Assembly: GCA_016185305.1 (NCBI GenBank)
Contig: JACPNV010000005.1
Coordinates: 29,328 to 93,327 of the forward strand
Direction: 5' to 3'
DNA: 64,000 bases
DNA from: Actinomycetota bacterium
GTDB lineage: Bacteria; Actinomycetota; Acidimicrobiia; Acidimicrobiales; Acidimicrobilacustridaceae
The notes below the pieces were generated by a model. That model saw only the letters and a program-made list of their open reading frames with translations. It made no database searches and was not told the DNA's origin. Within the stretch, counting starts at the first letter, position 1; every line of letters starts with the position of its first letter. This document shows, in pieces, positions 3,571 through 62,628 of the stretch. The position numbers and the translations under genes are program-made.

Positions 3571-4391
3571 GCGAGCATCCTTCCTACGAGACGCTCATCG
3601 TCGAGCGGGAGGGGCCGATCGGCTGGTTGATCTTCAACCGCCCCGATCGTGGCAACGCGATGGACGCGCGCATGCTGCACGAGCTCGAGCGGGCGTGGCG
3701 CGAGCTCGACACCGATCCTGCAGTTCGGGTGATCGTCAACGCGGGCGAAGGTCAGAGCTTCCAGACCGGACTCGACGTCGGTCAGCTCGGGCGCAACCGC
3801 GACGCGTTGCGAGAGCAGTCGCGCCGCACGAAGAATGCCGAGCTCAAGCTCACCGCGTGGCACAACGCGGTGTGGAAGCCGGTGATCGCCGCGGTCAACG
3901 GGACGTGCGCCGGCGGCGGGTTGCATTTCGTCGCCGATGCCGACATCGTCATTGCGTCCTCGGATGCCACGTTCGTCGACCCGCACGTGTCCATCGGGCA
4001 GGTGACCGCGTACGAGGTGGTCGCGCTGGTGCGGAAGTCGCCGATGGAAGCGATCGCTCGCATGGCCTTCACCGGCACGCACGAGCGGCTGCCCGCCCGG
4101 CGGGCGTACGAGCTCGGCCTGCTCAGCGAAGTCGTCGATCCTCCCGAACGCCTCCGCGACGCTGCTCGCGAGCTGGCACAGAAGGTTGCGCGCAACTCGC
4201 CCGCCGCGATGGCCGCGACCAAGCGAGCGCTGTGGGGCGCGCTCGAACGGGGACTGACCGATGCGTGCCGGGCCGGTTCGGCCGAGCTGGTCGGCATGTG
4301 GGGCCACCCCGACCAGACCGAAGGACCGCTCGCGTTCGCCGAGAAGCGGGAAGCCGAATGGCGCCCAGTTGCAGGAGCAAGACCAGCATGA
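3567..4391 (+). CDS. enoyl-CoA hydratase (tandem paralogue 1)
   Basis: GWLIFNRPDRGNAMDARM, FQTGLDV, DADIVIASSDATFVDPHVSIGQV. Confidence 0.88.
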   Translation: MSEHPSYETLIVEREGPIGWLIFNRPDRGNAMDARMLHELERAWRELDTDPAVRVIVNAGEGQSFQTGLDVGQLGRNRDALREQSRRTKNAELKLTAWHNAVWKPVIAAVNGTCAGGGLHFVADADIVIASSDATFVDPHVSIGQVTAYEVVALVRKSPMEAIARMAFTGTHERLPARRAYELGLLSEVVDPPERLRDAARELAQKVARNSPAAMAATKRALWGALERGLTDACRAGSAELVGMWGHPDQTEGPLAFAEKREAEWRPVAGARPA

Positions 4392-59011: not shown

Positions 59012-60130
59012 ATGGCGCGTGCGGCGTCGAAGAAGTCTCCCGACCTCCGGCAGGACGAGCTGCCCGGTCTGCGCGCGGCCGCGCCGGCCTCCCGGTCGCG
59101 CCACAGAGACGTCCGCCTGACCCACTGGGCGACCGAGGCCGGCAACGCGGCGAAGTGGGGCCGCACGGGTCTCCTCGAGTTGCTCGGTGGCGTCGCTTCC
59201 GAGCCGACCGGGGTCCTGGCCGGACTCGATCCCTACGACGACGCCGGGGTGGTGCGGCTGACCGACGAACTCGCACTCGTGTCGACCGCGACACTGCTCC
59301 CGCCGCTGGTCGACGATCCCGCCGCGTTCGGCGCGGTCGCCGCGGCCCACGCGTGCAGCAACGTCTTCGCCATGGGGGGCCGGGTCGTGTCCGCGCTCCA
59401 CCTCGCCGCGTTTCCAGACGACCTTCCCGCCCCATCGATCAGAGCGATGTTCAAGGCGGCGGCTGCGGTCGTGGCCGAGGCGGGCGGCGCGGTGGTCGGC
59501 GGCCAGACCATCCGGGCTGACGAACCGGTCTTCGGTCTGGCGGTGCAAGGCCTCGTTCATCCCGATCACGTCCTCGTCAGGGCGGGCGCTCGCCCCGGCG
59601 ACGTCGTCGTGCTGTCCAAGCCCATCGGCACCGGCATCGTCCTCGCTGGCGGCAGCGACGACGAGAAGGCGCGGGTTGTCGACGGCATGCGCATGCTCAA
59701 CCGCGGCGCCGCGGCGCGCCTGGCTGAAGCTGGCGCGGCCTGCCATGCCGTGACCGACGTGAGTGGCTTCGGATTGCTGGGCACGGTCTTCGAGCTGGCT
59801 GAGCGTTCCGGTGTGTGCGTGCTCATCGACGCGGAGATGGTTCCGTGCTACCGCGGCGCCAAACAGCTTGCCGCGAGCGGCGCGCGCGCGTCCGGTGCAG
59901 TCGACAACCGCTCGTCGTTCGGGCCGCTCGTGTCGATCGGTACTGATGTCGCGGGCGCGATGGAAGCTCTGGCGTTCGACCCGCAGACGTCGGGCGGCCT
60001 GCTGGCCGCGGTCGAACCAGATGACGTGGCCACCCTGGTCGGCGCCGGCTTCCGCCCGATCGGCACCGTGCGCGAGGCCGAGGTCGATGAGGAGGGCTAC
60101 GCGACCGAGTCTCTGGTGCACGTCACCTAG
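59012..60130 (+). CDS. SelD-like (selenide, water dikinase / AIR-synthase fold) protein with altered active site
   Basis: NVFAMGGRVVSALHLAAFP; VVGGQTIRADEPVFGLAVQGLVHP; VTDVSGFGLLGTVFELAE; FDPQTSGGLLAAV. Confidence 0.8.
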   Translation: MARAASKKSPDLRQDELPGLRAAAPASRSRHRDVRLTHWATEAGNAAKWGRTGLLELLGGVASEPTGVLAGLDPYDDAGVVRLTDELALVSTATLLPPLVDDPAAFGAVAAAHACSNVFAMGGRVVSALHLAAFPDDLPAPSIRAMFKAAAAVVAEAGGAVVGGQTIRADEPVFGLAVQGLVHPDHVLVRAGARPGDVVVLSKPIGTGIVLAGGSDDEKARVVDGMRMLNRGAAARLAEAGAACHAVTDVSGFGLLGTVFELAERSGVCVLIDAEMVPCYRGAKQLAASGARASGAVDNRSSFGPLVSIGTDVAGAMEALAFDPQTSGGLLAAVEPDDVATLVGAGFRPIGTVREAEVDEEGYATESLVHVT

Positions 60131-60315
60131 TAGGCGCTTGGCGCTTGCGGCCAACGGATCGACAATTTGTTGGGGATGTGGCAGGCGCCTTCCGGTGGCG
60201 CGACCGCCAGGGAGCCCGCCGGTGATGGGGAGCGCTCGGAGCGTCAGCGGAGAGTGCGTGGGGGCGCAGCCCCAGGCAACTAGGCGCTTGGGAAGAGCGA
60301 TCGACAATTTGTTGG

Positions 60316-61840
60316 CTATGCGGCGGCTGGCGTGGCGATGGCGAGGTCCTCGAAGAGTTGGTGCATGTCGATCCGTAGTTGTTCGTAGTCACGGTCGACG
60401 GCGGTCCAGGTGGACGGTTTGCGGCCGAGACGCGGGTTGCGCACACCGGCGAGGATCGGCGCGATGACGTGGTCGCGAAGGGCGAGTGTGCCGGCGATGG
60501 TGCGGGCGGATTGGTCAGGGACGTGGTAGCGGCGGGAGCGGCCTGGTTTGTCGACGAGGTGTTTGGCGCGGAGCTTGCGGAGGTCGTAGGCACCTTGGCG
60601 GACGGTGTAGTTGTGGTCGGCCCAGCCGGTGAGGGCTCGCACCTTGTCGGTGAACTCGCCCGCGGTGAAGCCGTTGGGTGACACGGCGAGGGCGAGCGCG
60701 GCCGCGAGCGTGTGGCGTGACCGGGCCTTGTTGAGGTCGATGCCGCCGATGCGGCTGGCGCCGAGCTGGGAGGGGGCGGGTAGTTCGTCGAGGATCCCGT
60801 CGGGGACGAACGCGACGTCGACGCTCGCCTTTGCTGTAGGCCTTCAACGTCAAGCGACCGAAGTGGACCTTGAAGTTGGTGAGGTCATAGGTAGGTGTCC
60901 CGATCACGGCTTCGAGTCGTGGAGGCCCGCTGGCTCGGTTTCGGTGGGGTCGGGCCTTGGCGCCGAACAGGGTGCGGACCTTCGGGACGTCGAGCCGGGA
61001 GCGTGTCCGGTCCACGATGGCTTCGAAGGTTCGCTGCATCTGCGCGCCGTTGCGGAACAAGAAGTTGCGGGAGTACTCGACCTGGTAGATCGAGTAGTCA
61101 TAGACGAAGCGGCTCGCTTCTTGATCCGCGAGATCCAACCCGAAACACAGGCAGGCGGTGTAGATCCACCGGTCGCACACCTCGCGCAGTCGCCCTGCTG
61201 TCTCGGTTTGAGACACGGTGTCTGCGATCTGCGCGAGGCGCGCTGGTTCGGGTACGACAGTAAAGCAGTTGCCCTCCTTCCCGAAGCCGACGCCGGCTCT
61301 GGTGGCCGCGGCGGCGACGTAGTCGTGGCCATTCAGGATCACCTGCGCTCCGAACGGCGGGTGACCCGACATCTTGATCGTCACGTGACCCCACGTCGGG
61401 TCCAGGATGTGGAACGAGTAATGGTTCACGTACTGCGAGGTCTTCTCGATGTTGACGATGTGACCGGCGTTTGCTCGTCTCACCTTCCACACCGTGGCCG
61501 GCGCCCGCGCCACCAGCACCAAGAACACCCCCGAGCGCACGGGACCCGCGTCGAGATGCTCCTGGGCGATGAGATGCTTGCGTTCTCCGGCCTTGCACTC
61601 GATGACCGGCACGCCGTTGGCGTTCGCCCAACCCCGGACACGGCGAGCGAACCGGCCCGCGAGGCGCATCAGGTGCGTGTTGTCCAAATCGTCGTCGTCA
61701 CCCTGCCAGCGGCGCCACCACGTCCGGAACCCGCCCGGCGAATGACCCAGCGAGAAGTACGCGTTCAACACGATCCGGTCCACGCAGTCATACGTGCCGG
61801 CCAACAGATCGCTGTAGCGAGAAGAAAGCTCGTCAGGCAT
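60316..61840 (-). pseudogene. element-encoded protein with C-terminal winged-helix region; internal deletion plus frameshift near 60820
   Basis: N-part (61840-~60826) ...PTYDLTNFKVHFGRLTLKAYSKGE; C-part in another frame ..SVDVAFVPDGILDELPAPSQLGASRIGGIDLNKARSRHTLAAALALAVSPNGFTAGEFTDKVRALTG... Confidence 0.65.
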
Positions 61841-61887
61841 CCACCGACGCTACGGCCACCGACTCGAAACTGCCCACCGGCTCGCTG

Positions 61888-61949
61888 CACTGCCCCCGAA
61901 GGGGGCCACCGATCACGAGCGAGCGAAGCGAGTCTCGGGATCGGAGTAG
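61888..61949. repeat. terminal block B with GCCCCC-GAA-GGGGGC hairpin and mirror repeat GAGCGAAGCGAG
   Basis: Matches 33465-33524; stem retained with altered length and loop (GCCCC-GCA-GGGGC). Confidence 0.8.
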
Positions 61950-62055
61950 GCGCTTGCTCGTCGACCACGAAATGGCCGATCGTGACCAGCGCACGCCGAG
62001 CCACCTCGTTCGCGCTCATGGTGCAGCGCGGCCGAGGCCACTACGGTCGGGCGCG

Positions 62056-62628
62056 ATGACTGCGGCCGTGGAGAACGACAAGGACGCCCGCACCGGTCTG
62101 GGCGGCGCAACCCCCGTTCAGCTCGCCGGAGCGCTGGCGTGGAAGTCGGCGGCCTACGGTGCCCGCCAGACCGGCAAGGCGGTGCGGCAGCTTCCCAGGT
62201 TCGCCACGCGGGCTCGCCGGACGTTGCCGAGCGGGCCGCTCGCTCGGGCCGCGGAGCGCAACTTCTCGTTCTGGTCGACCGAGTCGCGGTCGTCGATCGC
62301 GTCCATCAGGTCGCACGCCTCGGCGTGGTCCATCTACTCGATGTTCTCGGGCGGTTCGGTGGGCTCGATCGGCAGCATCGGGTCGGTTCTCTCGGTGGGG
62401 TCGGCCGGCAGCCTGCTCTCGATCGGTTCGGCCGGCTCGATCCTGTCCATCGGCGCGGCCGGCAGCGTCCTCTCCATCGGCGGCGTGAACCAGCAGCCGT
62501 GGAACCGAGAACCGCCGACTGGCGAAGCCGGCGACGAGCTCTCCCTGACGGTCGTCGAGCACGGCGGCACGCTGCTCGGCGTGCTGGCTCTCGCCGCAGC
62601 AGGCCGATCGGCGCTGTCGGCGTCGTGA
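62056..62628 (+). CDS. hypothetical protein with short Ser/Gly/Ile repeats (possible beta-solenoid)
   Basis: SGGSVGSIGSIGSVLSVGSAGSLLSIGSAGSILSIGAAGSVLSIGG. Confidence 0.6.
   Translation: MTAAVENDKDARTGLGGATPVQLAGALAWKSAAYGARQTGKAVRQLPRFATRARRTLPSGPLARAAERNFSFWSTESRSSIASIRSHASAWSIYSMFSGGSVGSIGSIGSVLSVGSAGSLLSIGSAGSILSIGAAGSVLSIGGVNQQPWNREPPTGEAGDELSLTVVEHGGTLLGVLALAAAGRSALSAS

Follow-up and report, generated by a model that had tools for sequence, protein, structure and literature searches.

A mobile family of hairpin-ended, single-gene bacterial elements with a predicted Rep_trans-like tyrosine endonuclease

To our knowledge, prokaryotic transposases belong to a small number of enzyme classes, and the HUH fold is the only one to which transposition of single strands has been linked until now. 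RAYTs are HUH proteins that are typically single-copy and domesticated. IS200/IS605 and REP/RAYT systems typically have hairpin ends, no target-site duplication (TSD), and palindromic repeats possibly mobilized in trans (PMC8266576, PMC6006769). The active site of the plasmid initiator RepD comprises D46, R140-x-D142, R189-x-Y191-x-K193, and R212-x-E214 (PMC4797284, PMC13107129), and the archaeal initiator Rep-SNJ2 joins a TBP-fold nuclease to a MarR-like winged helix-turn-helix (wHTH) and has a hairpin origin as its substrate (PMC13107129). Here, we describe a family of single-gene elements represented by a decayed copy in a 64,000-nucleotide stretch of an Actinomycetota genome (the window). 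The best explanation, which we hold to be fairly probable, is a mobile family in which one protein of ~550 amino acids, a Rep_trans-like tyrosine endonuclease with a winged helix, moves hairpin-ended DNA. The mobility is well supported; the chemistry is inferred.

The initial annotation of the window had treated positions 60129-61956 as one mobile element flanked by 12-nucleotide direct repeats. The repeats are exactly as it described (AGTAGGCGCTTG at 60129-60140 and 61945-61956, with a third copy, 92%, at 60279-60290), and both of its hairpins are present (GCCCCC-GAA-GGGGGC near 61892-61906 and GGGGC-GCA-GCCCC near 60258-60277). The segment is, however, two adjoining elements rather than one: a decayed copy of an element that has one gene and spans ~1.82 kb (60281-61946, minus strand) and a gene-less element (60131-60280). 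The ends of the gene-carrying element were placed by alignment to intact relatives and to mini-element ends. The features are as follows.

60281..61946, minus strand: decayed element with the gene; its left end lies at 61946 and its right end, ...CAAGCGCCTA, at 60281
60316..61840, minus strand: transposase-like pseudogene; ~44 codons missing, frameshift at ~60840, R-x-E of the active site gone
61909..61944, minus strand: left-end hairpin 1, directly inside the tip; DNA fold, with a homologous hairpin that covaries across relatives
61892..61906, minus strand: left-end hairpin 2, GCCCCC-TTC-GGGGGC
61947..61956, minus strand: left flank and inferred target CAAGCGC-CTA (CTA at 61947-61949); letters identical to the element's own right-end terminus
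60281..60315, minus strand: right end of the gene-carrying element, CAACAAATTGTCGAT...CCCAAGCGCCTA
60131..60280, minus strand: gene-less mini-element, 150 bp here (unit ~146 bp)
60258..60277, minus strand: mini-element left-end hairpin, GGGGC-GCA-GCCCC
60131..60173, minus strand: mini-element right end, CCAACAAATTGTCGATCCG...CAAGCGCCTA; includes most of the first 12-mer
60128..60130, plus strand: SelD stop codon TAG (within CTAG), abutted by the mini-element

Read on the minus strand, the mini-element starts at 60280, directly after the CTA that closes the gene-carrying element, and its right end at 60131 is near-identical to that of its neighbor; GATCGACAATTTGTTGG occurs twice in the window, at 60157 and 60299. 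The left 12-mer is the terminus of the mini-element, while the right 12-mer, of which the left flank (61947..61956) is part, is the target CAAGCGCCTA (on the other strand) together with the first bases of the left end. Each holds right-end sequence because insertion takes place behind a CTA, which can be the terminal CTA of another copy. The 12-mers were thus rejected as a TSD, the role first assigned to them, since the target or a neighboring element carries the same right-end sequence. The second end copy and GGGGC hairpin noted earlier beside the gene do exist, but they form a separate mini-element, and its dozens of copies had not been seen. The terminal right-end stretch of the gene-carrying element is also present in three other mini-elements (L179, L182, and L184). 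In a congener (G607), SelD is followed by the next gene without the intervening 1.8-kb segment.

The window gene is broken: compared with the nearest relative (L012), the loss of codons that relatives conserve and the change of frame have removed the conserved R-x-E. This copy is itself inactive and its gene is dead, and no intact gene was found in the window genome, a metagenome-assembled genome (MAG) that is 72% complete. The same genome holds remnants of a distant second subfamily (G000:C91:33189-33653, L003) and of the same subfamily (G000:C88: L002, L066, and L092). Window positions 62056-62628 encode a small protein with GSIGS/LSIG-type repeats, and this repeat region has matches in the DNA of several further genomes within the same bacterial family.

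Members of the element family are present in Mycobacterium, other Actinomycetota, Chloroflexota, Planctomycetota, and Burkholderiales, with intact relatives in Mycobacterium, Chloroflexota, and Planctomycetota. The distribution is patchy and the family rare (11 of 397 Actinomycetota genomes, 3 of 201 Mycobacteriaceae, and 17 of 301 Chloroflexota), and where it occurs it is often multicopy, with 13 matches in Mycobacterium SM1 and 7 on a plasmid of M. riyadhense. Three SM1 copies of one subfamily (L074, L075, and L076) are full-length, >99% identical over ~1,847 bp, and have exact ends, and their 500-bp flanks show no similarity to one another. The M. riyadhense plasmid likewise carries two ~1.82-kb copies that are 97% identical and lie at different sites. 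These copies meet the criterion for a transposable element, namely, the same unit with exact ends at unrelated sites, and we regard the mobility of the family as close to certain. Neither an excised circle nor, at the level of strains, an empty site for a gene-carrying copy was seen.

The proposal of a mobile, hairpin-ended, single-gene element was therefore borne out by multicopy homologs at unrelated sites. According to the initial annotation, homologs that were always single-copy, in conserved synteny, and without flanks like the terminal blocks of the window element (A at the left, B at the right) would have refuted it; homologs are multicopy, as in SM1 and M. riyadhense, and have A/B-like ends.

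The ends of the family share a layout. In eleven relatives, the left end reads CTAC-G-C (or a variant), followed by a hairpin and usually by a second small hairpin; the stem has four pairs, one mismatch, and six pairs and closes on a six-base loop. In the alignment of this hairpin, 97.3% of cells are paired and 25 cells show double changes, compared with 7.3 after shuffling; none of 500 shuffles matched the observed pairing or covariation, and slid-partner controls were only 29-53% paired. The two left-end hairpins of the window element have a z of -2.8 as folded DNA. In other subfamilies, the left side retains CTA-GC with a hairpin, and the right side finishes in ...CTA. A CGACAA-NNNN-TTGTCG hairpin is frequent at the right end; it is clear in some relatives and weak in the window. 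The two ends do not form inverted repeats, and a search of Rfam gave no match.

The inferred target is CTA. The left flank is CTA at 12 of 19 distinct nontandem sites and a one-letter variant at the other 7, the right end is CTA in 18 of 21 cases, and in tandem copies the target is the CTA ending the previous copy. No target duplication was found beyond CTA. The match between target and right end extends beyond CTA at five of the 19 sites and at none of the other 14 (p 0.41), so the five may mark sites at lost copies. Head-to-tail pairs of distantly related family members were observed on the M. riyadhense plasmid (L070, 4140-5798 and 2336-4108) and in a Pseudonocardiales MAG (L006, 2582-3904 and 3986-5236), which suggests that one element inserted at the right end of the other. 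Tandem 16- to 17-mers, CTAGCGACCAAGG(G/A)TCG, also lie beside elements on the same plasmid (L070, ~4085-4115) and 3' of the gene in another actinomycete (L132); these are possibly ultra-short, end-derived repeats at CTA.

The gene-less unit of 146 to 150 bp occurs at ~45 places in the window genome (G000), with 82-97% identity, and gives 31 matches in the congener G607; eight other genera of the bacterial family gave at most one weak match. The common mini-element left end folds like that of the full element, with a short stem, a mismatch, a 6-bp stem, and a 6-nucleotide loop. At the prfB-ftsE site of the window genome, a mini-element sits at the release factor stop codon, and it is absent from G607 and G608. 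We infer that gene-less copies were moved in trans; no gene accompanying the mini-elements was detected in the congener (also a MAG, 72% complete), so that neither MAG has yielded an intact one.

The initial annotation had placed the protein in an unclassified family with a C-terminal winged helix and no recognizable DDE or HUH transposase, and our searches agree on each point. Pfam, NCBIfam, PHROGs, and PADLOC contain no family for the protein core (the N-terminal two thirds), and we took the weak PADLOC matches to RT_UG9 (E 0.017) and Cas11e (E 0.011) to be fortuitous. A PDB sequence search with the protein returned nothing, and the family alignments contain no invariant HUH or DDE set and no invariant H-x-H. 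An AlphaFold model of an intact homolog, from an alignment that left out six rows from plasmid records, reached a pLDDT of 84.9 overall. Its C terminus matches MarR/ArsR winged helices in the PDB, and in Foldseek the full model matches viral proteins from E 4.5e-5, TBP-fold proteins among them; these include A0A2N9QVX7, which is also a Foldseek match of Rep-SNJ2 (PMC13107129).

Because the winged helix dominated the comparison of the full-length model with the PDB, the core was folded and searched alone (pLDDT 88.8, pTM 0.88). Its best two Foldseek matches among 350,542 PDB chains are both chains of 4cij, the Rep_trans initiator RepSTK1. The match is weak and below usual significance (E 0.016-0.020, prob 0.72, TM 0.23-0.32); it rests on a predicted model and is, by itself, no more than suggestive. 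Kinship with Rep_trans had been proposed from a K-x-Y-x-K...R-x-E motif before this search. The conserved residues are D21 (27/27), E257, K334, Y336, and R344 (33/33 each), and Q255, K338, and E346 (32/33 each). In order and predicted strand only, without superposition, D21, Q255-x-E257, K334-x-Y336-x-K338, and R344-x-E346 fit the RepD pattern, which is also visible in the Rep sequences aligned here. At the sequence level, PF02486 matched none of the 33 family members and nothing in the window genome, hhalign detected no similarity to Rep_trans sequences (probability 0.1%), and the family proteins do not match PF25227. We consider a Rep_trans-like enzyme probable, with both the kinship of fold and the catalytic roles inferred.

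Could the family instead be a transposon of a known class (DDE, HUH Y1/Y2, serine, tyrosine, DEDD, or Cas1), too diverged to recognize? Its hairpin ends, the lack of a TSD, and repeats that may be mobilized in trans would fit IS200/IS605 and REP/RAYT. We nevertheless think this unlikely: the core has no convincing library match and no invariant HUH or DDE set, its predicted fold is TBP-like with a Rep_trans protein as the best PDB match, and the two ends are not inverted repeats. Slightly less credible still is a minimal replicon of the rolling-circle type, resembling a plasmid or phage and able to integrate, with its protein starting replication and its ends being the integrated origin. The relatives in Rep_trans are initiators of plasmids, integrative and conjugative elements (ICEs), and phages, and Rep-SNJ2 offers the same union of TBP-fold nuclease, MarR-like wHTH, and hairpin origin. 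The copies, however, are single-gene units found on chromosomes as well as plasmids, and their two conserved ends differ from each other; phage records gave no match to the family, scans of viral contigs in IMG/VR matched only two (L103 and L104), and gene-less 146-bp copies are scattered in tens of places. That the gene is a domesticated or regulatory one of ArsR/MarR type, with the repeats as its binding sites and something else spreading them, has in its favor the C-terminal wHTH, one member annotated as an ArsR family regulator, and mini-elements that persist in a congener without a detected gene, but it is very improbable given that a single genome contains gene-carrying copies that are >99% identical although their sites are unrelated, and that these copies share the end layout of the mini-elements.

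We thus return to a mobile family moved by its own Rep_trans-like enzyme. In the mechanism that we propose, the protein would combine an N-terminal TBP-fold, Rep_trans-like tyrosine endonuclease with a C-terminal MarR/ArsR-like winged helix and would recognize the left-end hairpins and a right-end structure on one DNA strand. Y336 would cut both ends at CTA; D21, E257, and E346 are predicted to hold a metal, and K334, K338, and R344 to assist. The released strand would be joined 3' of a CTA elsewhere (often CTA^G), insertion at the CTA ending another copy would generate tandems, and gene-less copies that keep both ends would be moved in trans. We lean toward such a single-strand, CTA-targeted (peel-and-paste-like) mechanism, which would resemble the workings of IS200/IS605 and REPIN/RAYT and in which the single-strand intermediate is inferred. 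The evidence likewise tips, if modestly, toward a new mechanistic class: a non-HUH tyrosine transposase with a Rep_trans-type TBP fold that moves hairpin-ended single-stranded DNA, with REPIN-like mini-elements, in several bacterial phyla. No such transposon was found in the open-licence literature; subscription papers and ISfinder were outside the scope of the search.

If this reading is true, a nicking fold unrelated to HUH also serves single-strand transposition, the shared ancestry of transposases with the rolling-circle initiators of plasmids would not be confined to a single case, and dispersed hairpin repeats of Actinomycetota, whose mover was previously unknown, would be explained. Intact copies in cultured Mycobacterium (L005 and L076) and in Chloroflexota make the proposal directly testable.

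Several known systems resemble the family in part. Like MITEs of DDE insertion sequences, it has gene-less derivatives that are presumably mobilized in trans; unlike DDE insertion sequences and their MITEs, it has neither terminal inverted repeats nor a TSD. With IS200/IS605 (HUH Y1) it shares subterminal hairpins, unlike and noninverted ends, no TSD found, and integration 3' of a short sequence with which the element itself also terminates. It differs in its protein (~550 amino acids, a predicted TBP-fold, Rep_trans-like core plus wHTH) and in its target, CTA, and this protein does not meet the test of an HUH motif and Y1 tyrosine domain that defines both IS200/IS605 and RAYT enzymes. REPIN/RAYT (TnpAREP) systems are similar in their dozens of short hairpin repeats per genome, whose ends are common to the gene-carrying element, and in their tandem pairs, whereas in our family other genomes contain multiple copies of the gene-carrying form, with ends of the same kind, and the mini-elements are ~146-bp copies of left plus right end. 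The archaeal rolling-circle initiators Rep-Arvir (DUF7845, PF25227) have the order of TBP-like core and MarR-like wHTH that is predicted here, have a viral Foldseek match in common with our protein, and act on a hairpin; unlike our protein, which has no PF25227 match, they are reported only from archaeal viruses and plasmids. Closest in predicted fold, as the top though weak PDB match, are the Rep_trans proteins (PF02486: pT181/pC221 RepC/RepD, RepSTK1, ICEBs1 NicK, and inovirus initiators), with which the family also shares the pattern D...[RQ]-x-[DE]...[RK]-x-Y-x-K...R-x-E on predicted strands; sequence similarity to them is not detectable, and what we describe is a transposable element rather than a replicon or an ICE.
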